Under the pieces are notes generated by a model that had not been told where the DNA came from, searched no databases, and saw only the letters and a list, made by a program, of their open reading frames with translations. From NCBI GenBank assembly GCA_033065855.1, contig JAVXUO010000385.1:248001-312000 (forward strand): a stretch of DNA of 64,000 bases, in the 5' to 3' direction. Positions 3,901 to 56,610 of the stretch are shown one piece after another. The DNA comes from Escallonia rubra (Eukaryota > Streptophyta > Magnoliopsida > Escalloniales > Escalloniaceae). The position numbers were made by a program, and so were the translations under genes. Positions within the stretch are counted from its first letter, which is position 1; each line of letters begins with the position of its first letter.

Positions 3901-6198
3901 ACATTTTTGGAACTTCTGTAGTGTAACGAGGAAATAAGACTGATTATTATATGAATTAAGAGGCTTTGAGCTTTGATTTGACCGATGGCAATTGCTAGTG
4001 GGCTTCCCTTCTTCCCATCTTCTCTTCTCTTTTGTCTTTACCTACTTCTGAGTTTGATCTGCATCACCATCAATCAATAATTTCTACCTTGATCGGTAAT
4101 TATGAGGTTACTGAAGTATGCCGTGCTAACCAAGCGAGTCGCGGAGTTCCTCTTCTCCTTTTCTTTTTTCTTTTTTTTTTTCTTTTTTTCCGACTTGTGT
4201 TGGAGGATGAACCACAGCTAAATTGTTCTCCTGATGTCAACTATTTGCATCTCATAACATGCTGCATTTACTGAGTAGCGCCTTCTTTAATGCATGAATA
4301 TTGCTTAAATTGCTATTCCATGTGGAAATTTAGAATCAGTTTTAAGTTATTTGCTCAGGTTGATTTACATTTGAAGTTACTCTGATGAAAAATCTCAGCC
4401 TACTTCAGTTCCAGTGTGTTCAATAACCTCATATAGAAAATTTGATTGCCGACTATTTTGTATGGTGGCTGTAGATTGTCAATGGAAGAATTTGTGGGGA
4501 CATCTCCGTATCCCGCGCTTTTGGGGACATGCGGTTTAAGACAAAGAAAAATGAGTATGGCCTCTATTTCCAATCTACTCCCAGATGTATGTAACTAAGT
4601 TTCATCAAAAAATGAGAGATATAAGGCCTGCTGTGGCTTACATCTACTAATGGAAGCTTTTCTGGTCACTAATAGGATGCTAGAGAAGGGAGTTGAGGAA
4701 GGAAGATGGAGTCAAAAATTTGTTTCTCGGTAGGCTCTCTCTCATGTTTTCTTCGACTTTTTATGCCTACCTCTTCTCCTTGTTTCAGGAGATTGTACTC
4801 GTAAATATATTGCTCGTATGGTGCAGAATTGCCATCATTCCGATGTTTGGGCTTATCTGTGATACTTGTAACAGTCTATACAAGTATATTAATGAGCAGT
4901 TTCGGAACAGTAATATAAATATGGTAGTTTCTTCCCATTGCCTATGCTTACATAACATACAGAAGCAAAGCCATGACAACCAGATGTGGTCGCTGCTATG
5001 CTGGTCTTGGTAGCAGGTTGTTTTGGAACAGGCAGGGATGACAATATTCAGCTTTGCTCTAGTTTTGTTATTTACCATTCTGTATCGATATGTCAGTATC
5101 ATTCTATCGTCCTTCTTTAAGTTTGATAGCATTTTCTGGAAACTGTTTAAGATGTTCGATGCTACTATCCCACAATACCACCGTTCATATTGCTGTATTA
5201 AACAGAAGTCTTATAATGCTTGTATTGCTCTGAATGTGGATCCTTTCATTGTGCGCTAGGATAAATTTTAGCGGAGACCTGGTAACTGCGTCTCCTGATG
5301 TTTTTCAAGTATCTCTTGGATCAGATGCAGAATTTGTACTCTTGGCATCTGATGGCTTGTGGGATTATATGAACAGGTCTGCTCTATTTTTTCATGACAA
5401 TAACTTTTGTTAAATTGGATTGAGTGAGCCACGAGAACAGTATCATCCCCTGAACTTTGCTAATTTCAGCTCAGATGCTATCAATTTTGCTAGAAATCAA
5501 CTAAGGAAACATGGCAATGTTCAGGTAACTGATGTACCTTGCTTTTGTGGATTTGTTTCTCCTGCAGACAACTTAAATTTCTTTTGTTCTGATTACAGAT
5601 GGCTTGTGAAGCACTTGCACAGGCAGCTTTGGTAATGAATTTTATGGATGACTTCTTTTCTCTGCATGATAATAGTCCTACAATTTATCTCTTCCATCAA
5701 CCTGATTTCGTATTCATAACAGGACCGACGCTCCCAAGATAATGTCACAATTGTCATAGCTGATTTAGGGTATGTACTTCTATTTTGGTGGTAATATCAT
5801 GTCAACTGAATAGGAAAACCTGGCTTATAATCAATACCATTACTAAACTGTTCTTTTGAACTTATATCCTGTGCTATTCGGAAGTTTCATCTTGTTCAAC
5901 ATCCAATTAAAAAGGGTTTCTTTACTAAAAAAGAAAAAGTCATAGTGCAGAAGAGGGGATTGTACAATCGATGCTTTTTTATTTTGACAAGTTTTAATCC
6001 TGTTATAAGAACAGGGTTCTGTCGAACTATTTCATCATTTTAGATTGTTTGGTCTTGCTTTGACTTGGTTACAGGAGGACAGATTGGCAAAGTTTACCTG
6101 TCCAGCAACAAAATTTTGTTTACGAATTTGGCCAAGCTTTCGTTACTATTGGTATAGTGTCGCTTGGAATATGGATGTCATCTCTGCTTCCTTTATGA
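933..6198 (+). CDS. TAP38/PPH1: Thylakoid-associated protein phosphatase 2C (LHCII phosphatase), TAP38/PPH1
   Basis: PP2C-type Ser/Thr phosphatase that in Arabidopsis dephosphorylates LHCII and drives the state 2 to state 1 transition. Eleven exons were assigned: 933-1246, 2302-2430, 2555-2657, 2799-2909, 4475-4554, 4676-4729, 5260-5376, 5470-5524, 5599-5631, 5723-5769 and 6075-6198. They join in frame to 388 residues, the length I recall for the Arabidopsis protein. The basic, Ser-rich N-terminus looks like a chloroplast transit peptide. Metal-binding motifs are visible in order: EEMEDD, VFDGHAG (this subfamily has Ala where most PP2Cs have Gly), [17 protein letters not shown] and SQDNVT. 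The protein ends in a hydrophobic segment ([19 protein letters not shown]), consistent with a thylakoid membrane anchor. Intron 4 (1565 nt) is the longest and has long pyrimidine and poly-C tracts. The identification is strong; individual splice sites were inferred by eye. Confidence 0.93.
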
Positions 6199-12222: not shown

Positions 12223-12448
12223 GGAAAAACTTTGACTGCTAGCTGAATTGTAAGAAGATACCTACAATTCCTTGTATAGTAGCCATAAAAGGTCGCTATC
12301 TGTCAATACTTTTAACGACAATTTTTAACAGTCCTTTTTGGGCATCACTAAACAAAAGTCACTAAAAACATATAACAACAATTAGTTGTCATCATACAAA
12401 GAGTTGTAGGTATCTTTTCGCAACCCAGGTAGCAGTCAAAATTTTTCC
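12223..12448. mobile_element. Mutator-like MITE (226 bp) with 9-bp target duplication
   Basis: The ends form an imperfect terminal inverted repeat of about 65 bp, beginning GGAAAAACTTTGACTGCTA on the left and GGAAAAATTTTGACTGCTA on the complement of the right. Both arms contain AGATACCTACAA. The flanks GGTATCAAA (12214-12222) and GGTATCTTA (12449-12457) agree at 7 of 9 positions, the target-duplication length of Mutator-like elements. Related copies occur at 45898-46137 and, as fragments, near 29.6, 41.6 and 45.5 kb. Its subterminal sequence is shared with the larger element at about 48045-49336. Confidence 0.72.
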
Positions 12449-21537: not shown

Positions 21538-21822
21538 GGGAGCTGATCCGTTGTGAGAGCACTAGCAAAATAGAAGATGTTGCAAACGCGATCTGGTCGT
21601 CCATGCCCGATCTGTGGACGGTCTAGATCTTTTTTTTGTATTTTTTTAAGTCTGTCCGCTACATAATGTAACGAACAAGTAGGCAAACACTTCTCTATCT
21701 CTCTCTCTTTTCCATCATTATAAATGTTTCTCTATCTTTAGTCGTCAATTTCTTACTTTTTCTGAATCTTCCTCTGTCCTTTCTCTCTCTTTTCTCTCTC
21801 ATCCTCATCTCCCCTCCTCATT

Positions 21823-21857
<35 letters not shown>

Positions 21858-21862
21858 CTGAG

Positions 21863-22066
21863 GTATTAGTAGTGTAGAGAGATATCAAAGTGGCGCTGGG
21901 CAGGCCTACACATCGGCGACAAGTGAAAGCAGGGGTAATCTGAGTTCATGTTTCTCAACCAACTCGAATGTTAATGGTGGTAATTTTGATTTTGACTGGG
22001 ATTGGAATGTGGGTGTTGAGGGGACTTGGGGAGCATGGGATGAGGAAGAAGACAACACGATTTCTT
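21863..22066 (+). other. Coding-like fragment of unknown origin inside the Pack-MULE
   Basis: One plus-strand frame stays open over about 68 codons, has non-random composition (VERYQSGAGQAYTS, then NFDFDWDWNVG and GAWDEEEDN) and ends at a stop. It has no start codon and no family I recognise. It may be a second captured exon; the opposite strand is also open here, so the orientation is uncertain. Confidence 0.3.
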
Positions 22067-22212
22067 AGCTGTGGGACAACACGGTCCTTTAGATTCTTTA
22101 TTTTTTGGTGACTGCACAAGGGCTGAAGGAGTTTCTCTCTTGACCAGGCCAGCTCCGTTAATAACCATCTTTGAACCAGGTAGCTCAAGAAGATCATATC
22201 AGGTTCGCATTG

Positions 22213-22552
22213 TTTTGCAAACCAGTAATCAGCGCCTCTAACAATCTCCGGGCGTGGTGGAAGGAAAAAGTCAAATTTGATAGGAATGTCCTTGCTGCAA
22301 TTGCCAAGTACCAGGTAGACAATTCAGTCCCTGGGAAATTTGAGGATTGCACTGCAGTGGCCTCCACTCCTCATACCTTGCAAGAGCTCCAGGACACTAC
22401 TCTTGGCTCACTTTTGTCTACTCTGATGTAGCACCGTGACCCACCACAGAGGCGAAAAGGGAATAGCCCCTCCATGGTGGCCCACTGGAAATAAGGAATG
22501 GTGGCTTCAGTTAGGCCTGCCTAAGGATCAAGGACCGCCTCCATATAAGAGA
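22213..22552 (+). pseudogene. Captured fragment of an EIN3/EIL transcription-factor gene
   Basis: EIN3/EIL proteins are DNA-binding regulators of ethylene responses. The translation shows [33 protein letters not shown] and [20 protein letters not shown], the hallmark N-terminal DNA-binding region of the EIN3/EIL1 type. A stop follows at 22429-22431 where the family normally has Gln (ahead of CDPPQRR). The homology then continues in shifted frames through [13 protein letters not shown] and [12 protein letters not shown] to about 22552. Start, acidic N-terminus and C-terminus are all missing. It lies within the inverted termini of the MULE, so it is read as a transduplicated and decayed fragment. 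Confidence 0.88.
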
Positions 22553-23523
22553 AAGGAGAGAGAGTCAGAAAAGTAATAAGAGATGGAGAGAGAAAGAGAA
22601 AAAAAATGACGAGGGAGAAAAGAATGGCATAACATTAACGAGGGAAAAGTAGAGAGAAAGAGAAAAAAGCTAAAACGATTCGTCCGCTACATAATGTCGC
22701 GGATGAGAGAAAGGACAGAATGTCAGAACATTAATGAGGGAAATGAGAGAAAAAGAGAAAAAAGCTAAAAAGATTTGTCCGCTACATAATGTAGCGGTTG
22801 AACTCTTTTTAAATTGCAGGGTATTTTTGTTAAAAATTCGTCTGCTACATTATGTAGCGGACAGACTTAAAAAAACACACAAAAAAAAAAGATCTAGACC
22901 GTCCACAGATCGCGTATGGATGGCCAGATAGCGTTTGCAACATCTCCTATTTTGCTAGCGCTCCCTCTATATATATATATATATAATACCATTTCTTTTT
23001 TATACTTTCTAAACTCTTAACCCCCAATTCGACAAAGTCAAAGCCTCAAAGCCAAATGTATGCTCATATTCTTGTCTTATTTTTCTGAACTAGGTTGAGC
23101 AACGATTCTCACTTTTCGTTCATGTTTAGAGATATTTGAAGACTTTACTTTTCTTACTTTATTTCTTATTATAAATTTAAAGACTCTTGTCTTTTTCTCT
23201 CTCATTTTGTCCAAAATTTTGTTTCCATACTTATATTTAAGTTCATTTTGAGACTTTAATGTAATTTTTTCATTATCATGAATAAATTGTAGAAATGGAT
23301 GATCAATGATATGTTTCGAAATCGTTTTTTTTTTATAAAGTAATTCATAACTATGGACAGCCCGCGTTCAGCCCATGTCCACCAAAAAATTGATGGGCGT
23401 GGCGTGGACACATATTATTTGGCTCGTAGATGGGCTGCACTGGACATGGGCATGACTTTTAGAAAGTGGACTGGTCATGGTCTAATCCTTGGGCCCGTTC
23501 GGCCCACCCAAGTTGCACCTCTA

Positions 23524-30199: not shown

Positions 30200-34199
<4,000 letters not shown>

Positions 34200-41555: not shown

Positions 41556-42099
41556 ATAAATTTTCTGCTAACATTTTTAACGATAATTCTTAACACTGCT
41601 TTTTTAGCGTCATTTAATAACAATCACAAAAAACATTTGACATCGATTAATTGTCGCTATGTGGGGGTGATAACTATCATCTTATAATCCGGCTAGCAGT
41701 AAAAAAAATTCCTCTTAAAATCGTTGGCAACTGAGATTGTAGCAAAAAACCTGTACATTGAGTTGTTTTTATCCTCATTGTGTAGCTCAGACCAAATGAA
41801 CTTCAAGAGACACACACAAAAAAAAAAGTGATAGGATCCCGCTTAGCATTTTTAGCGGCTCATCTGACAATATGTAGCGACGGTTAAGAGAACGATTCTC
41901 GCAAATATTTGTGCATTGTGATTTAACTTATGGGGTTGTAACCATAATTTCAGGAAAATTAGAGAGTAAACATATAGCCTATCACCTTTGCTTAAAACTT
42001 CTGGCTTACATGCATTCAGGTGTCACACACAAATGCAAATCCTGGCTAAGCACCTACAATAATGTCTTATTCTACTTTAATGAAACCAAAAATGTATAG
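41556..42099. other. Intergenic region with a MITE fragment
   Basis: The segment 41565-41715 resembles the right half of the Mutator-like MITE family: TTTTTAACGATAATTCTTAA, then TTTTTTAGCGTC, an ATTAATTGTCGCTATG block and GCTAGCAGTAAAAA near the end. No left terminus was fixed. Sequence from about 41720 to 42099 holds no recognised gene and should include the 3' UTR of the glucanase. Confidence 0.45.
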
Positions 42100-46137: not shown

Positions 46138-47094
46138 ATTAGAAATATGAAACACTGTCTCTACAATTTGGCCGATATGGAACTCAAGATTTAAGTGCTA
46201 CAACATATGGGCAAATTCTATTCATTCAATGGCATACCCCGTACCCTTTGGAATTTACCAGAAGTGTGCCAATCTAACGACATTTATAGTAAAATCGAAG
46301 CTAATAAAACCTTAAAATTGTCTTTTCAATTTGGCATGTATATCAATTTGCCATTTGGAATTTAAATAATCAAACGAATTTAATTCACACATCTTCATTT
46401 TCCATCTCAACATCTTCCACATAGTAATAGGCAGTTTGCAATTCCACCCATTCTTATCCAAAACTCTTTCCTTCTCTCCCAATGTTTGTCTCATCCTTTA
46501 ATCTTAAATCTTTTTTCTTAGACAAGCCCAATATTCTTTTTCTCTAACAACTTTAATCTCCTTCTTTATATTTCATTATAAGATCATGTACATAATTTTA
46601 TCTCTCATTTTATTTTTTTGTCATTATTTATATCTTTTTATTCTCTTTGGTCCTTATTAATACAAATCTCAACAACTCTTGTGAAAAAGTGAAAACAAAA
46701 TTTTTTGGTACTACTGATTTTGTTATTACTAATCGGTATACAAGACTGAAAAATCATGACTATTTAGGCAGTTGGTGGTCCAGCGCACAACGTTGAGGGT
46801 CAAAACTAGTATTCTAAAGCGGTGCTACTCTTTCTTAAATTTTATTCTCAAAGCATTGACTTAAAATTTGAAAAGAACGCATGACATAATATTTTACATA
46901 CACTTTTTGACAGAGAAAGTTACGTAATTATCATGGTCAATGACAGCAAATAAAAAGTGAATAATTTTGGTGCGATTAATATATGATCGCTGTATATACT
47001 TTATTGGGCCACTGCTGAAGGCTTAGCAAATTGATGAATACAACACAAGAAAAGCCCAGCAGCTTTTAAAGTATACGTAAGCCCAAAATTAATT
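46138..47094. other. Intergenic region without a recognised gene
   Basis: AT-rich sequence. The block TGAAGGCTTAGCAAATTGAT near 47014 is echoed by AGCTCAGCAAATTGAT near 47116 and by the inverted copy near 56345. No coding sequence is recognised. Confidence 0.5.
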
Positions 47095-48044
47095 GGGACT
47101 CTAATGTCACTAAAAGCTCAGCAAATTGATGAATATGCCTTCCATCTTCAATATATTCTTATTTATGCGGCAAAGACCTGCCAATTTAGAGATCAGTAGT
47201 GTGCATGATTTATAATGAAAGCGAACTTTGTAACTATCACTGTAGTTGAGGTAGGTTTTCCTCGAGAACTGAATCTTATTTTCTGGATATTCACACACAG
47301 TGAGTGACGGAGGTAAGTCTTTTTCAATCGAATATCCGATAATCACTTTAATCTCAACTACTTACAGTTACCAAGAGCTAAAAGCGCTCTAAGATTTTTA
47401 TCCAAAACCAATCAATTGATGCAACTCGTTGATTGGGTTTTGTGCTCTCACGAGATCATTTTAATTAAGTTATTCAAGACTAAGTAGACATGTGACCAAT
47501 TACCCTATAATTTGATACAAATTTATTCCTCAAATCACGACCCAATTAACTCACGTGAGTATAAAGTCACGGAATCCAACAGTTGCGTCGTCACCTTCAG
47601 AGGTCAGGTATTGTCGTTGAGTCACCATCATTGGCCGGAGTTGCGTGTTTTTGTGTGAATCAGCCAATAATTGCGTTGCAATAATGAATTTCCTATAAAA
47701 AGTTACCCAAAAAGAGGGATAAAGTTTAAAGAGGCATAAGAGTGGGTTTGACAATCCTAAAGTAATTGATTATAGCTTGAACCATGTTCAACCATGACTA
47801 GGCTTGCTATGGATACCCACTTGTATTGATTACAGAGGTTTGGTGTTTGTATTGTTGTTAGTGACGGATTAATTAAGAACTTTGGTACAGAGGGTGTCAA
47901 TGTAAACTTATTGTTCATAGCCATATGAAGTTGAGAAAAAACTAAGAGATAATATAAATAGGGAAAAACTTGGGAAATGACTGTTTGTTTTTTTATTTGA
48001 TACTCCGTATGATGTATGTGTGTGGGTGGGGGAAGGGAGACTTT

Positions 48045-49336
48045 TGCTACTATTGTGATGGTAGGAAGATACCTATTATATCTCTTATATAGCGTAATTG
48101 AGGAGTTGCAAGGGCCTGTACGTTTACACTTTTCATTTTCAATATTTTCGTATTCAATCACAAATTATGATTGTGTACTTTTATAATTTTCATCACTTTT
48201 TTTGTGTCTACCTTTTTCAGTTGGTTTTGTATGTTTACCGTTTTCATTTCCGTTTTCATTACTGTTACCACCATTTTTTCCGGTATTACTTTTATTGCTT
48301 CTTTGATGGATCTTTCTCTTTCTTTTACGATCGTATTCCCAAATCAAGGATGCCAAACGAAACCAAATCAATGGGGTTCTTTTTCCCGGCAGGATTCCCA
48401 AATTAGAGAGGATTCCCAAATCATAGAGGATGTTTTTCCCTATTCACACTCTCAATTTCCTTTTCGATCATCACACACGTGTTTCTTCTCCCTCTTGCTT
48501 CTTCTTCTTCTTCCCCATTAACAAACCAACTCGGAAGGCTCCCATTTGTCGCACTCCTCCTCCCAATTTTTTCAATCGCAAACCTTAATCATGCACTCAA
48601 ACACACAGTCACACACATAACACTGCGCGTGTCTGTGTGTGACGTAGAGAGAGAGAGAGAGAGTGGAGGTGGTTCGGATGTGGTAAATATATGGGTGCTG
48701 CGGGCTCTAAACTCGAGAAAGCGCTGGGAAAAGATTGAAGCCCTCTTAATCGAAGGATTAAGAATTCAGTCTGGCATGGCAGATGAGGAAACACCTTCAA
48801 ACTTTAGGCTGCAGTCTATTGAGAAAGCCTCTTTAAGCAAGGCTGGTGCCATTGAAGATGGGGTGAGAGGGAGTTGAAGATCCAGGCAATGGATCTGAAA
48901 ATTAGAGAGAAACTAGCGTGACTTTCTCTATAACGATGAAGAGAGAGACGTTGAAGAGAGAGACAGATGAGGGAAAGGGTGAACAGTAGATTGGTGGGAC
49001 TTTCTGACATGGAATTCAACTGTGTCGGCAAAAACCGGAAAAATGTGAAAACACCTCTAAGGTGTTTTCTCTTTTTTCGGCATTATTTGGTTTTGCATCC
49101 AAAATGATAAGAGTACAAAAAAAGAACATATTTTTGCCATCATTACAAAATTAGAATACAAAAAAATGTAAGCATACTTCCCCTAAATATTTTTAAAGAC
49201 TTTTTTGCAAACACTATCAGTGATGATTTTTTACAGTACTTTTTAGCGTTACTAAATAAAAATTATTAAAAATATCTAACGAGAATTAATAATTGTTATA
49301 TGAGGATCGTACAAACCGGTGCCAAAATTTTTCAGA
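48045..49336 (+). mobile_element. Probable Pack-MULE carrying a UBP/PMI1 chimera
   Basis: The left end (CTTTTGCTACTATTGTGATG, then GGAAGATACCTATTATATC) resembles the left terminus of the MITE at 12223. The complement of the right end (GAAAAATTTTGGCACC, then AACAATTATTAATTCTCGTT and TTTATTTAGTAACGCTAAAA) is colinear with that MITE's right half. Flanks GGGGAAGGG and AGAGAAGGG agree at 7 of 9 positions. The interior holds two gene fragments and no transposase. The corresponding place in the right arm of the inverted duplication lacks this material. The exact ends are uncertain by several bases. Confidence 0.55.
48691..48874 (+). pseudogene. Chimeric gene fragment: UBP3/UBP4 start joined to a PMI1-like fragment (copy A)
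   Basis: ATG at 48691 opens MGAAGSKLEKALG, the conserved N-terminus of plant ubiquitin-specific proteases 3/4, after a leader-like CT- and GA-rich stretch. After 13-14 residues the frame meets TGA (48736-48738). In another frame, KIEALLIEGLRIQSGMADEE, then TPSNFRLQSIEKA (48731 to about 48850) matches the KIEALSIEGLRIQSGMSDE region that I recall from PMI1-type C2-domain proteins (chloroplast movement). The two fragments are fused out of frame. No catalytic Cys box of the protease and no C2 domain are present. Confidence 0.75.
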
Positions 49337-49851
49337 GAAGGGGAGGGGGGTTGGTCATCTCAGTCTTGGAGAGCATTTTTTCATATACATAACATGAAAT
49401 TTTCTAAGGGCAAAGGCCTCCGCTTGCCTACCCATCCCTTGCAGTCTCGAAGCAACCATACATTTTTTTTTACCAAAAATGGAGAAGCAGCCGTCCATGG
49501 AGAAGACATTTGGACATTCACTAAAGCCCATCAGATGCTATTTTTGTGATTATGATATGGTCACAGCAGTCCAATCTAGTTAGGAAGGTTCAAAAGGGAC
49601 AAGACACACCATGTTAGAACATTAAATTACAACCAAATTCTTTTCCCGTACCTACACAATTCGGTATAAATATTCTCAGAAACAAATTCTTTTATTGCAC
49701 GATAAAAGATAAAGTAGCGTGTAATCTATACCAATACGAAACTTAATACAAGTTGTGGGACCGGAACTGGTCTATTTAGAGAGTCGCTTTCGCTCCACAA
49801 AAAGTTTGAGCTCTAAAAGTTAGTCTGACGATGTCTCATGATAAATCGACT

Positions 49852-49880
49852 CCCCCGCCCCCGCCTCCGCCCCCGCCCCC
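49852..49880. repeat. CCCCCG hexamer repeat, unit A
   Basis: About five units of CCCCCG with one CCTCCG variant. The complementary strand is G-rich with runs of five G and could form a G-quadruplex. Confidence 0.9.
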
Positions 49881-50411
49881 AAGATCATGTAAGCTTATTG
49901 TTGTGGATGAATGCTATCTACTATTCTATCCTTTAAAAACAACCTTATCTTAAAAATAATTATTGACCGATAACATCGTCATGCTATTCAGTTTACTTGT
50001 ATAACAGATTAGAAAGAAAAAAAAAAGTTTTCTATGTTTACCGTTTTCATTTCTGTTTTCATTACTGTTACCACCATTTTTTCCGGTATTACTTTTATTG
50101 CTTCTTTGATGGATTTTTCTCTTTCTTTTACGATTGTATTCCCAAATCAAGGATGCCAACCGAAACCAAATCAATGGGGTTCTTTTTCCTGGCAGGATTC
50201 CCAAATCATTGAGGATGTTTTTCCCTATTCACATTCTCAATTTCCTTTTCGATCTCCCTCTTGCTTCTTCTTCTTCTTCCCCATTAACAAACCAACTCGG
50301 AAGGCTCCCATTTGTCGCACTCCTCTCCCAATTTTTTCAATCGCAAAACCCTAATCATGCACTCAAACACACAGTCACACACATAACACTGTGCGTGTCT
50401 GTGTGTGACGT

Positions 50412-50445
<34 letters not shown>

Positions 50446-50470
50446 GAGGTGGTTCGGATGTGGTAAATAT

Positions 50471-50660
50471 ATGGGTGCTGCGGGCTCTAAACTCGAGAAA
50501 GCGCTAGGAAAAAAATGAAGCCCTCTTAATCGAAGGATTAAGAATTCATCTGGCATGGCAGATGAGGAAACGCCTTCAAGCTTTAGGCTGCAGTCTATTG
50601 AGCAAGCCTCTCTAAGCAAGGCTGATGCCATTGAAGATGGGGTGAGAGGGAGTTGAAGAT
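50471..50660 (+). pseudogene. Chimeric UBP/PMI1 fragment, tandem copy B
   Basis: Tandem copy of the fragment at 48691. ATG at 50471 again gives MGAAGSKLEKALGKK and then a stop (TGA, where copy A reads GAT TGA after a small change). The PMI1-like part has lost two bases (ATTCATCTGG against ATTCAGTCTGG), which shifts its frame. It is decayed like copy A, with independent changes. Confidence 0.75.
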
Positions 50661-51642
50661 CCAGGCAATGGATCTGAAAATTAGAAAGAAACTAGGGTGA
50701 CTTTCTCTGTAACGACGAAGAGAGAGACGTTGAAGAGAGAGACGGATGAGGGAAAGGGTGAACAATAGATTGGTGGGACTTTCTGACATGGAATTCAACT
50801 GTGTCGGCAAAAATCGAAAAATGTGAAAACACCTCTAAGGTGTTTTCTCTTTTTTTGGCACTATTTGGATTTTGCATCCAAAATGAATATCCAAAATGAT
50901 AAAAGTACAAAAAAGAAGAGCATCTTTTTGCCATCATTACAAAATTAGAATACAAAAAAATGTAAGCATACTCCCCCTAAATGTTTTTAAAGATTTTTCT
51001 GCAAACACTATCGGTGATGATTTTTTACAGTACTTTTTAGCGTTATTAAATAAAAATTATTAAAAATTTCTAACGATAATTAATTATTGTTATATGAGGA
51101 TCGTACAAACCGGTGCCAAAAATTTTCGGAGAAAGGGAGGGGGGTTGGTCATCTCAGTTTTGGAGAGCATTTTTTCATATACATAACATGAAATTTTCTA
51201 AGGGCAAAGGCCTCCGCTTGCCTACCCATCCCTTGCAGTCTCGAAGCAACCATACATTTTTTTACCAAAAATGGAGAAGCAGCCGTCCATGGAGAAGACA
51301 TTTGGGCATTCGCTAAATCCCATCAGGTGCTATTTTTGTGATTATGATATGGTCACAGCAGTCCAATCTAGTTAGGAAGGTTCACAAGGGACAAGACACA
51401 CCAAGTTAGAACATTAAATTACAACCAAATTCTTTTCCCGTACCTACACAATTTGGTATAAATATTCTCAGAAACAAACTCTTTTATTGCACGATAAAAG
51501 ATAAAGTAGCGTGTAATCTGTACCAATACGAAACTTAATGCAAGTTGTGGAACTAGAACTGGTCTATTTAGAGAGTCGCTTTCGCTCCACAAAAAGCTTG
51601 AGCGCTAAAGTTAGTCTGACGTTGTCTCATGATAAATCGACT

Positions 51643-51684
51643 CCCCCGCCCCCGCCTCCGCCCCCGCCCCCGCCCCCGCCCCCG
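51643..51684. repeat. CCCCCG hexamer repeat, unit B (expanded)
   Basis: About seven units of CCCCCG with one CCTCCG variant. It is two units longer than the equivalent repeat in unit A, so the tract has changed length since the tandem duplication. Confidence 0.9.
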
Positions 51685-52754
51685 AGATCATGTAAGCTTA
51701 TTGTTGTGGATGTTCTACTGAAAATGCTATCTACTATTCTATCCTTTAAAAACAACCTTATCTTAAAAATAAAAATTGACTGATAACATCGTCATGCTAT
51801 TCAGTTTACTTGTATAACAGATTAGAAAGAAAAAGAAAAAAGTTTACTTGTATAACATGGCCAGATTCTTTAGGGAAGTAACCTAGGGGCTGATCTTGAG
51901 AGAGCTCGGATCTTAGTAATAATATTGATCGACAACAGAAAAGTTGAAGAACTTACCTGCTTATAACAAGCTTCAAGAAAGCTCTGATCATCATCTCAAC
52001 GAGTATGAAACATCAGCACATGTACAGTCCATGTAACTTCCAGTTCTAACGTTGTTTGCCCAAATGAGCATCCCAGAAACAACAGCACCATCCGCTCATC
52101 AGAGGCGCCTTGGTAGATTACTGTCGCTGGAATACTCATTTGAGCAAGAAACATTACAAGGAAGAATATGTTTACTCTTCACCCCCAGTCTCTCACTCTC
52201 ATGCATGAAGTGATGAACAACTCCTCTCTGTCTCTCTCTCTCTCAAGGGTCTATTTGTTGTTATAAATAGGAGGATACAGAGACCATACAAGGATATTTG
52301 GTTGGGGTACAGTACACATAATTACCAAAATGCCACGACACTTGATTTCAGGGTATTTATGAACGGTGGGAGTGAGATGCAAGTGTTGGTAGGAGGACAA
52401 AACAAGAACCTGTGAACTGTCACATGACTTCGTAACCCTGAATCTGTCTTTGGGACCATGGATCCATCAGAGGGCATTTAAGGGAAAGGAAGAGTTCAAT
52501 GGAGTGAACCAGAAAGTCTGCTGAACGAGTGGAGGAGACAAACTGGTTGGCATGGTGCACTTTGATAGTCTGTTTAGCCCTCTTTGTGCAGAGGGAGAAA
52601 AGAGAAAGGAGAAAGGAAGTTTAGTTGTTGACGGAATGGCAGTTCATCCCCAACCACCAAACAGATAAAGAGTAAAACAATGGATTTGCCTTATAAAATT
52701 GAGTTTTCAGGACAAATTTTCACCAAGTGGAAAGAATATTATTCTATTACTTTC

Positions 52755-53335
52755 TATCTATAGCAACTAAACATACATAAGTTAACACACTCCATATTAT
52801 TTAGGGATCTGATCAAAATTTCTTGCAGAAACTTTCAAAAAGATATTACAAACTTAGGAATCATCAAAAACAAAAAGAACGGGGTGTCAGGAGAAGCTTT
52901 TCGGAGTTTTTTCCCTAAATAATACATATTTAATACTTAACTACCAAAATACACCATTTTCAAACTTATTTACCCGCATACCACATTTTGGGAAATCGTG
53001 GTTTGAAACCACGTTTTCAAGGTAGAAATCGCTGTTTGAAACATCGATTTCTACTTGATTTTTACCTTAAAGTAGAAATCGTGGTTTGAAACCACGTTTT
53101 CAAGGTAGAAATCGCTGTTGAAAACGTGGTTTCAAACCACGATTTCCCAAAATGTGGTATGCGGGTAAATAAGTTTGAAAATGGTGTATTTTGGTAATTA
53201 AGTATTAAATATGTATTATTTAGGGAAAAAACTCAAGCTTTTCGTTATATTATATAAGCACTAAACTATGTTGGGATGGTTGCGAGAAGATCATGTGGTC
53301 TTAATTAGGAAACGCTTAATATAAACATATATTTT
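52755..53335. repeat. Direct repeat bordering the right arm of the inverted duplication (copy 1, split by a fold-back element)
   Basis: Sequence at 52755-52893 plus 53245-53335 matches 56405-56610 in the same orientation. Shared blocks are TTTAGGGATCT, GAAACTTTCAAAAAGATATT, ACAAACTTAGGAATCA, GCGAGAAGATCA and AGGAAACGCTT, then ATATAAACATATAT. In copy 1 the fold-back element 52904-53234 interrupts it; copy 2 shows the uninterrupted order. Confidence 0.75.
52904..53234. mobile_element. Fold-back (Mutator-type) MITE with 10-bp target duplication
   Basis: The element is almost entirely palindromic. Its ends are GAGTTTTTTCCCTAAATAAT and the exact complement at 53215-53234, and the inverted arms run for well over 100 bp. 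Perfect flanking duplications AAGCTTTTCG lie at 52894-52903 and 53235-53244. The centre has short repeats of GTAGAAATCG and GGTTTGAAACCACG, the latter itself palindromic. No coding capacity. The uninterrupted related sequence at 56405-56610 lacks the insertion. Confidence 0.85.
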
Positions 53336-53553
53336 CCTGAATAACCCCATATGGCTGGATGGTCCCAAAGACAGATTCAGGGTTATGATGTCATGTGACA
53401 ATTTGCTTTATAGGTTATTATTGTATTGTCCTCCTACCAACATTTGTTTTGCACCTCAATTGTCCTCCTACCAACATTTGCACCTCAGTACTCCCACCTC
53501 ATATAAACCCTGGAATCAAGTGTAGTGGCATTTTGGTAGTTATCGATCTGTTA

Positions 53554-53595
53554 CCCCCCCCCCCCCCCCCCCCCCAGAGAGAGAGAGAGAGAGAG
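53554..53595. repeat. Poly-C tract followed by (AG)n
   Basis: About 22 C residues are followed by AG dinucleotides. It lies in the right arm of the inverted duplication, where the left arm has no such tract. The Pro-rich open frame across it is an artefact of the repeat. Confidence 0.9.
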
Positions 53596-56404
53596 TGTTC
53601 ATCTTTTTCCCACGACAGTAGCACTCTTGAATCTACTAAGGTGCCTCTGATGAGCGGATGGTACTTTTGTTTCTGGGATGCTCATTTGTGCAAACGACGT
53701 TAGAAGTGGGATAGCTTGTTTGTGAGTTTTGAGACAGCTTGTTTGTGAGTTTTGAGACGAGAGAAAAAGAAGAAAAGTAAAGATAAGAGAAAGGAAGAAA
53801 AGGGAACACAATTTTTCTTGTTTTTGTTTGAGTTTAAGAGAGAAAATAACATATTATTCATTTATTTGTTTGTTTGTAAGTTCAGTAAAAAAGAGTAGAA
53901 AAGACACTCAATTACGTGTATACCCCTAATTTATTTTGATAATTTTAACAAAGATTATAATATATAATCCTAAAGGATAACATAATTTTGAAGCGAAAAT
54001 AAATTAGTCATCAATAATATCATACAAAGTTCATATCATACTGGTTTTTGACACTGTAGAAAATACAAAAATTAGCTATGAGTTGACTACAAACATCCCA
54101 ACATGCAAATCTAATTAATGTCACACCAAAAGCAAAACAATAAGTCACGAGTCAACTCTAACATCTAAAACAATCATCTGTTTGTAAGTAAAATGATAAG
54201 TTCTTGTAAGAAACACTAAAACCTAGCAGTCACTATCTCAAGGATAATATGGGCAGTATAAAAACATTACTCATGAAAGTTTCTTTTCTTTCCCTTTCTT
54301 CCCAATTTTGAGAGGAAAGATTTAGAGACAAAAAAAGTCCAAACTTTCCTCATTTTTCTCTTCTTTTCTCTCGTTAAAAAATACTCATAAATTAGAGAAA
54401 TGGGAGAAAAATAGTCACTTTCCTTTCTTTTTCTCTCATAAAAAAACTCACGTATAGGCTAGAAGTCACATGAATTGTACATGTTTTCATGTTTCTTACT
54501 CGTTGAGCTGATGATCAGAGCTTGCTTGAAGCTTCTAAGCAGGTAAGTTCTTCCACTTTTCTGTTGTCAATCAATATTACTGATCCATTACTTAAGATAA
54601 GGTACGAGCTCTCTCGATACCAATCACTAGGTTACTTCCCTAAAGAATCTGGCCACGTTATAGAATTAAACAGCATAGTATCATGATATGTTATCAGTCA
54701 ATTGTTTACTTTTAAGATAAGGTTGCCTTTAAAGGATAGAGTAGTAGATAGCATTTTGAATAGATCATCCACAACAATACACTTACTTGATCTAAGGTGC
54801 TACTCGATTTATGAATGAGATATCGTTGGACTTAGCCGCTCAAGTTTTTCATGAAACGAAAGCGACTTTCTAAGTAGATCAGTTCCAATCTCTGAATTTG
54901 CATTTGATTTTGTATCGATAACAATTGCACGTTACTTTATCTTCTATCGTCCAATAAAAAGACTTCTTTCTGATCGAGACATAAAATATATGTATGCAGT
55001 GTGTGCAGGTATGGCAAACGAATTTGATTGAAATTTAATGCTCTAACATGGTGTGTCTTGTCCCTTGTGAACCTTCCTAACTAGGTTAGGCTGGTTGACC
55101 ATATCATAATCACAAAAATAGGATCTGATGGGCTTTAGCGTATGGTCAAATGTCTTCTCCACGGACGGCTGCTTCTCCATTTTTGGTAAAAACGTATGGT
55201 TGTTTCGGGACTGCAAAGGATTGGCAGGCAAGGGAAGGCTCTTGCACTTAGAAAATTTCATGCTATGTATATAAAAAATGCTCTGACTAACTACTCAGAT
55301 CATGATCTTTTACTGTACAATAAAATATCAGGATCTTTTAACGGACTTTCACGATAAGAATAAAGAAAAATGCAATTATGGGCCTCGCGCACTCACTTTT
55401 AAAATTTAAATATATGCACTTATTTTGACCATATCTAATCACAGAACTCTCGTTTCTCAAGTTTTTGTCTGTTTGCAACTCTTATTTTTTCCTCGACAAC
55501 TTCATATTACATTAAATTATGATTATTCATTGGCCCCCTCTGTGCCAAAGTTCTTAATCCGTCACTAACAGCAATACAAGTACCAAACCTTTACACATGT
55601 TTAGTGCTTATAGAAGTAGATATCCATACCGCAGCCATGGTTGAACAAGGTTCAAGCTCTCATCGATTACTTTAGGATTGTCAAACCCACTTTAATGCCT
55701 CTTTAAACTGTCTTATTAGTTGGTAATAATCTTGTATAGGAAATTCATTGTTGCAACGCAAATATTGACTGATTCATATTAAAAAAAAAAAACAGAACTT
55801 AGGCAACGATGGTGACTTAACAACGATATCTCCGAATACCTCCAAAGGTGACGAGGTAATTTATCGGATTACGTTGCTATAAGCCGTATAAGTTAAAGTC
55901 GTCACTTGAAGGATAAAATAATTTCAAATCATGTAATAAAATAAATTTTCATGTGGTAGATATATTTCTAATCATGTCTAAATAGCTTTGGGTCAAGTGA
56001 AAGATCTAGGTGACTAGCTACGTTAGTTGATTGGTTTTCGATAAAACTCTAGAGTGTTTTTTTGTCCTTATTGACTGCGTGTGGTTTGAGTTAAAGTGAT
56101 TATCAGACAGTGGACCCTGGAAACATGGTTTCATGACTTCAATGGTTATTTTAGAGATAATATTTATCTCTCTATATGGAAAGTCACCATCTACACATCG
56201 TAGTTCTCTGAGAAAGAGCCCACCTCAACTATCGTGATAGTTAGAGAGCTTTCGTTCGTTATAAATCTTGATTGTTACTAATCTCAAAATCTACAGGTCG
56301 ATCTTTGCTGTTTAAGTAAGGTATTGATAATGGAAGGCTTATTCATCAATTTGCTAAGCCTTCAGACTTCATAACATACGAATTATCCTTGGAATTAATA
56401 TTAC

Positions 56405-56610
56405 TACCGATAGCAACTAATGAGAACAGACTCCATAATTTAAGGACACATTCCATTATTTAGGGATCTAATCAAAATACCTTGTAGAAACTTTCAAAAA
56501 GATATTACAAACTTAGGAATCAAAAACAAAAGGAACGGAATGTTTGCGAGAAGATCACCTCGCACTAGGTGGTTTTAGGAAACGCTTGATATAAACATAT
56601 ATTTCCTTGT
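56405..56610. repeat. Direct repeat bordering the inverted duplication (copy 2)
   Basis: Uninterrupted counterpart of 52755-53335. It lies just outside the right arm of the inverted duplication, so the two copies bracket that arm. Confidence 0.7.

Follow-up and report, generated by a model that had tools for sequence, protein, structure and literature searches.

Which transposon brought two unrelated gene pieces to the same place, and from which genes were they taken? The question is raised by a locus in the genome of Escallonia rubra, in a stretch of 64,000 nt that represents positions 248,001 to 312,000 of the forward strand of contig JAVXUO010000385.1 (assembly GCA_033065855.1) and is hereafter called the window, whose own numbering is used throughout. 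At this locus, a piece of a UBP3/4-type gene and a piece of a PMI1-type gene are fused out of frame. An earlier sequence-only reading had ascribed the capture of both to a Pack-MULE (a gene-carrying Mutator-like element) whose termini would lie at 48045 and 49336. Comparison with the rest of the genome points to another carrier: the two pieces very probably belong to a Pack-PIF, i.e., a non-autonomous element of the PIF/Harbinger type with gene pieces from two genes, later copied by tandem duplication.

Ends and class of the mobile unit

The genome searched was the window's own assembly (566 Mb, 3222 contigs). With positions 48045-49336 as query, at least 81 matches were obtained, the query itself and its tandem copy among them; scoring covered 40 of 1063 first-look candidates, and all copy counts given here are lower bounds. 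Thirty-eight regions were taken for comparison, namely 36 element loci and the two contigs that hold the likely UBP parent. Four pairs of loci among the 36 (L011/L012, L014/L015, L019/L029, and L037/L042) are each considered as one site on two contigs because their left flanks are the same, and the 36 loci therefore correspond to at most 32 separate sites. The contig pairs L030/L032 and L055/L056 are also 98.5-98.9% alike, and insertion sites are repeated in the four element pairs, so that some regions seem to be represented in the assembly by a second version as well.

Self and tandem copy aside, no scored genome match extended beyond window position 48111 on the left or 49205 on the right, and the readable copies end at positions equal to 48112 and 49183. 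The putative termini 48045/49336 thus flank no scored related insertion elsewhere, and the interval between them does not behave as a mobile unit. Comparison of 48000-49360 with the 38 regions added a single outside piece, on the opposite strand of L010 (49183-49290, 75%), which fits the outer Mutator-type family described below. With ends drawn from these relatives, the inner element occupies 48112-49183 on the forward strand (1072 bp). Its left arm (48112-48430), common to relatives with and without the UBP and PMI1 pieces, ends in short GATTCCCAAATCATAGAGGAT-type repeats, and its right arm (48856-49183) is likewise common to relatives; such an element would consist of conserved arms of ~320 bp around a swappable interior.

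Readable copies mostly show TTA or TAA followed by GGGCCTGTACG or GGCCCCGTACG, with the inverted form followed by TTA or TAA on the other side. The terminal inverted repeats are short, GGCCCCGTACG with CGTACGGGGCC in copies carrying UBP without PMI1, and imperfect in the focal copy. The tips read GGGCC or GGCCCC, and GGGCC-type tips are typical of the PIF/Harbinger superfamily. In a tip-anchored test, for which both tips were readable at ≥77% in 27 of the 36 other loci, the same three flanking bases stood on both sides in 14 loci (permuted mean 6.8, P 0.0004). When two same-site repeats were dropped, exact 3-bp flanks were found at 14 of 25 sites against a permuted mean of 6.2 (P 0.0002), 13 of these flanks being TTA/TAA and one TAT. 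A looser listing, with the boundary free by up to 3 bases, gave equal flanks in 18 of 37 cases and is not the test used. Target duplications of 3 bp are usual for Harbinger elements, as stated in an account of the C. elegans element Turmoil-1 (PMC2572040).

The flanks also bear on the suggestion that the cargo is carried by an element from a different superfamily (hAT, for instance) and that the 3-bp flanks agree by chance. GGGCC-starting tips are not decisive, and no transposase was seen: neither the three forward frames of 46500-49501 nor the three reverse frames of 48001-49502 gave a transposase family at E 0.1, a single reverse-frame hit of E 0.089, below cut-off, being taken as chance. 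Such an origin is nonetheless unlikely, since the two flanks agree more often than under permutation, no exact 8- or 9-bp flank duplication was found at the 25 sites and the 8-base flank comparison gave 2.72 matching bases on average vs. 2.64 when permuted (P 0.39). Segmental duplication or pseudogene debris, without any transposon, is extremely improbable: the locus does lie within an inverted and a tandem duplication, and in four cases two loci represent a single site found on two contigs, but copies on many contigs have common ends and different flanks.

Several observations weigh against the assignment to PIF/Harbinger. The 3-bp flanks are unequal at 11 of the 25 sites, and those of the focal copy, CAA at 48109-48111 and TAA at 49184-49186, match in two of three bases. 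The focal right tip reaches 0.76, under the 77% threshold. The 9-base flank comparison gave 3.12 matching bases vs. 2.75 permuted (P 0.02, best 5/9), and no transposase partner is known. On the balance of tips and flanks, we infer that the inner element was moved by a PIF/Harbinger transposase. A weak inverted similarity of 350 bp within the element was left unused: its score of 82 exceeds the maximum of 200 shuffles (74), yet 2.75% of 400 randomly chosen positions in the window score as high.

The outer Mutator-type MITE

The sequence that borders the inner element accounts for the Mutator-type ends reported earlier. The window contains a Mutator-type miniature inverted-repeat transposable element (MITE) of 226 bp at 12223-12448, with inverted ends and the flanks GGTATCAAA and GGTATCTTA, which match at 7 of 9 positions. 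Once joined, 48038-48110 and 49189-49333 form a 218-bp piece that aligns with this reference MITE near end to end, scoring 127 where the best of 300 shuffles reached 56; it also outscores shuffles against the related copies near 41561 (81 vs. a maximum of 63) and 45898 (91 vs. 66). The single halves also beat shuffles against the reference MITE (left 45 vs. 37, right 89 vs. 65), and the left half alone falls below them against some other copies (29 vs. 34; 34 vs. 40). On these alignments, the inner element is an insertion that split a 218-bp Mutator-type MITE, the left part of which spans 48038-48111 (74 bp) and the right part 49184-49333 (150 bp), both on the forward strand, the latter opening with the TAA flank of the inner element. 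The Mutator-type ends are therefore real, and belong to the outer MITE into which the inner element is nested.

A target duplication of 7/9 bases had likewise been claimed. It can be located as GGGGAAGGG at 48029-48037 and AGAGAAGGG at 49334-49342 (GGAGAAAGG in the second tandem copy), where it would be a possible duplication of the outer MITE; it is not secure, because the stretch is G-rich and other registers match equally well. A scan for 9-bp duplications combined with inverted ends returned 3 matches vs. 2.1 in shuffles.

Pack-MULEs have Mutator-type ends and longer target duplications. That a Pack-MULE bounded by 48045 and 49336 captured both genes draws on this 7/9 duplication and on the likeness of the outer ends to the window's Mutator-type MITEs (in two comparisons, the left end outscores every one of 500 shuffles and the right end gives p 0.018 and 0.002), but it is very improbable on several counts. 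No dispersed copy among the scored candidates reaches 48045 or 49336, and the sequence outside 48112-49183 makes up a 218-bp MITE by itself. Aligned as mutual inverted repeats, the outer ends (48030-48110 with 49270-49340) score no better than shuffles (p about 0.09). Dispersed copies have 3-bp flanks and no exact 9-bp duplication, and the inner element lacks Mutator-type ends with a 9-bp duplication around its cargo.

Captured pieces and cargo of the family

The genes from which the cargo was taken can be sought in the same genome, and likely parents are found for both pieces. The UBP piece (48431-48728, forward strand) carries the ATG at 48691 and comprises a 5′ part and the first 38 coding bp of a deubiquitinase-type gene, the plant names UBP3/UBP4 being those used in the sequence-only reading. 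It is 89.7% identical to contig C1206 (L030 4515-4821) and 88.4% identical to contig C1207. These two contigs are probably two versions of one region, because they are 98.5% alike over 7.4 kb. From its ATG, the parental frame continues without stop past the capture break and matches USP12/USP46 structures (best E 1.4e-12), the Pfam UCH match there being below cut-off (20.2 and 20.4 vs. 23.9 bits). Twenty-four UBP-bearing copies were examined, tandem copies and same-site pairs each counted, and they are 84-92% like the parent where aligned. The left breakpoint corresponds to L030 base 4515 in 22 of them and to base 4557 in L026 and L040.

The PMI1-type piece (48727-48855, forward strand, 129 bp) matches Pfam PF21745, the C-terminal family of PMI1/PMIR1-2, above cut-off both as a typed 45-residue peptide (E 3.4e-9) and in the raw window frame (E 9.5e-8). 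A profile search of the genome with PF21745 returned three genes (on C2176, C2224, and C2116), the element copies, and two partial gene copies. Its parent is likely the C2116 gene, to which the focal piece is 93.0% identical over 129 bp, against 73.7% over 95 bp for the C2224 gene and no match for that of C2176. The PMI1 matches at C2224:53273 and C401:75088 were rejected as elements, being partial copies of another PMI1-type gene. Three loci without UBP (L027, L028, and L036) hold 245-248 bp of PMI1 sequence (94-96%), and the four copies with both pieces (L009, L040, and the two tandem copies) hold 124-129 bp (88-93%). The 248-bp capture starts and ends within a single parental open frame of 359 codons.

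Host gene fragments thus lie between the ends of the element, and their likely parents, on C1206/C1207 and C2116, lie elsewhere in the genome. The proposal of a transposon-borne, out-of-frame chimera of two gene pieces holds, as the pieces resemble separate parents and derive from two different genes, not from a single ancestral one. The uninterrupted intron–exon edges that had been expected in its support are absent: the UBP piece stops within the first coding exon of its parent, and the PMI1 piece lies inside one open frame. An intron was seen in neither piece, so that the template of the capture may have been DNA or RNA.

In the focal copy, the end of the UBP piece and the start of the PMI1 piece have 2 bp in common; the join of L009 lies within a GA repeat, and that of L040 is occupied by a GC-rich piece between UBP and PMI1. 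In both tandem copies, the UBP frame meets a stop two codons past the join; the PMI1 frame is open across the piece in copy 1, inside a frame of 132 codons, and broken in copy 2. Most likely, the chimera pieces have no function as protein, because of that stop and of the broken frame. Capture of a leader, and possibly of a promoter, had also been put forward. A search of the parent (L030 3901-4800) for TATA-like motifs gave two, at 3947 and 4421, the nearer one 94 bp upstream of the captured 4515-4821, and none inside the captured part as scanned to 4800, the last 21 bp lying outside the scan. The non-coding part of the UBP piece is probably leader, because the parental motifs lie upstream of it; promoter capture is possible and not favoured. 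By the same evidence, it is very unlikely that neighbouring transcription is driven by the piece as a mobile promoter or leader, an idea to which its presence in 24 of the copies examined, at the identity given above, lends some weight.

The arms and cargo were mapped in the 36 loci and in both tandem copies. The UBP + PMI1 chimera is not private to the focal locus, since L009 (C2371) and L040 (C1546) bear it as well. UBP without PMI1 is found in 20 loci (L010-L026, L029, L038, and L043, with L029 and L015 cut by contig ends), PMI1 without UBP in the three loci named above, a DEG1-type interior in seven (L031, L033, L034, L039, L044, L045, and L046), and other interiors in four (L035, L037, L041, and L042). 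The DEG1 match was made at the protein level for L031 (C598) alone, the interior of which contains a reverse-oriented piece of a DEG1-type protease (PDB 3qo6, E 5.4e-15). A GC-rich cargo piece (L016:1266-1531 and relatives) occurs in 20 of the 36 loci. UBP, PMI1, and DEG1 pieces each adjoin the GATTCCCAAATCATAGAGGAT-type repeats that close the left arm on its inner side. Because three gene pieces adjoin the same repeats, a fixed capture site may tentatively be considered, where cargo would be swapped repeatedly, cassette-like, at one repair-prone point and not only by fusion of neighbouring insertions.

History of the locus and known relatives

How, and in what order, might the pieces have been acquired? 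The UBP tree covered the two parent contigs and all of the 24 copies except L015 and L038. It separated the parents from the 22 element rows with 99/99 support, with 17 of its 21 inner branches open and a bootstrap that had not settled. In the left-arm tree (28 of 38 rows), the focal copies are nearest by path length to L036, L027, and L028, the PMI1-only loci, although the fork is unsupported. In the right-arm tree (26 of 38 rows), they are nearest to L009, and the PMI1-only loci group with L035, L037, and L041 (100/99).

Capture of PMI1 and then of UBP is the simplest order, though not a firm one. An ancestor of the family would first have taken 248 bp from within one open PMI1-type frame; later, a UBP3/4-type piece would have come to lie beside the same left arm, replacing the front of the PMI1 piece. 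The capture may have been of a repair type. UBP-bearing copies would then have spread, one of them inserting into the Mutator-type MITE of the window. This scheme has to be set against three considerations. With one parent pair only, the UBP tree is compatible with two captures. The left- and right-arm trees disagree, so that the arms may be recombinant, which leaves the capture order less firm; recombination between elements is likely. Lastly, because L040 carries UBP, GC-rich, and PMI1 pieces, the UBP-PMI1 join may represent the deletion of a middle piece.

A 1.8-kb tandem duplication subsequently copied the element minus its first 112 bp. Slippage, or else end joining, at short homology may have produced it, as a short GTTT, read by eye, is common to the duplication junctions. 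That the chimera was copied in tandem and that both copies then decayed separately, as first suggested, is borne out. Local alignment of 48224-50040 with 50027-51854 gave 1708 identical bases among 1773 aligned (96.3%), with 99 gap positions. The units themselves (48224-50026 and 50027-51840, both on the forward strand) differ by 45 transitions and 18 transversions over 1760 sites, a Kimura two-parameter distance of 0.037, which under assumed rates only (1.3e-8 to 5e-9 per site per year) would date the duplication to about 1.4-3.7 million years ago. With one relative (L009) as outgroup, copy 1 has 11 derived changes in the element part and copy 2 has 18, and 4 more could be assigned to neither. 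Copy 2 holds its UBP piece at 50216-50508, delimited by similarity to the parent, and its PMI1 piece at 50507-50634, where a 1-bp deletion shifts the frame; both are on the forward strand.

The locus also lies within an old inverted duplication (47078-52478 and 53340-56397, pieces about 72-91% identical). Neither MITE nor inner element aligns to the homologous arm at 54459-56397 on the reverse strand, which is not a clean empty site because 129 bp particular to the arm stand there unaligned, vs. 1357 bp in the focal copy. No Pfam or coding domain was found at E 0.01 in the nine frames of the inverted arms that were scanned. Between the arms stands a 331-bp MITE (52904-53234); its own arms measure 117 bp (99%), and AAGCTTTTCG flanks it on either side as a 10-bp duplication. 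A short repeat with two same-orientation copies (52751-53334 and 56401-56604) seems to be split, in its first copy, by that MITE. Elsewhere in the window, 21557-22963 (1.4 kb, inverted ends of about 118 bp, 90%) is a possible further DNA transposon, and 30669-31085 (417 bp) has 104-bp inverted ends (98%).

Gene-shuffling Pack-PIF transposons are already known, and the inner element very probably represents a new family of them. Pack-PIF (Pack-TYPE PIF/Harbinger) elements were described in maize (PMC8903248), and that printed name is used here, as Pack-Harbinger was not found in the literature searched. According to that account, the maize elements are also short, non-autonomous, and of PIF type; their ends are conserved, they enclose gene fragments, and each family has several copies. 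The present ones belong to another genome and family, bear pieces of three named genes within one family, and include a copy nested in a Mutator-type MITE. Rice Pack-MULEs, named in the same account (PMC8903248), similarly capture and spread gene fragments. In grapevine, the PIF elements Pifvine-3 are reported with mostly TAA/TTA target duplications and captured exons and introns, in some cases common to several copies (PMC2528002); the elements reported to bear those captures possess ORF1 and transposase regions, whereas no transposase was seen here. Turmoil-1, as portrayed for C. elegans, is a Harbinger element with two captured coding pieces, but its host is an animal, its cargo lies in inverted repeats of 760 bp, and a transposase is present (PMC2572040).

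A review describes the fusion of neighbouring insertions as a mechanism of capture and allows that a further mechanism may be yet undiscovered (PMC13317346). The locus reminds us that a nested transposon can mislead the interpretation of element ends. With likely parents and relatives bearing one or two cargo pieces in one genome, the family offers a well-resolved case of stepwise acquisition of gene pieces by an element that is very probably of the PIF/Harbinger type, and could help to settle by what route unlinked genes come to be captured by DNA transposons.

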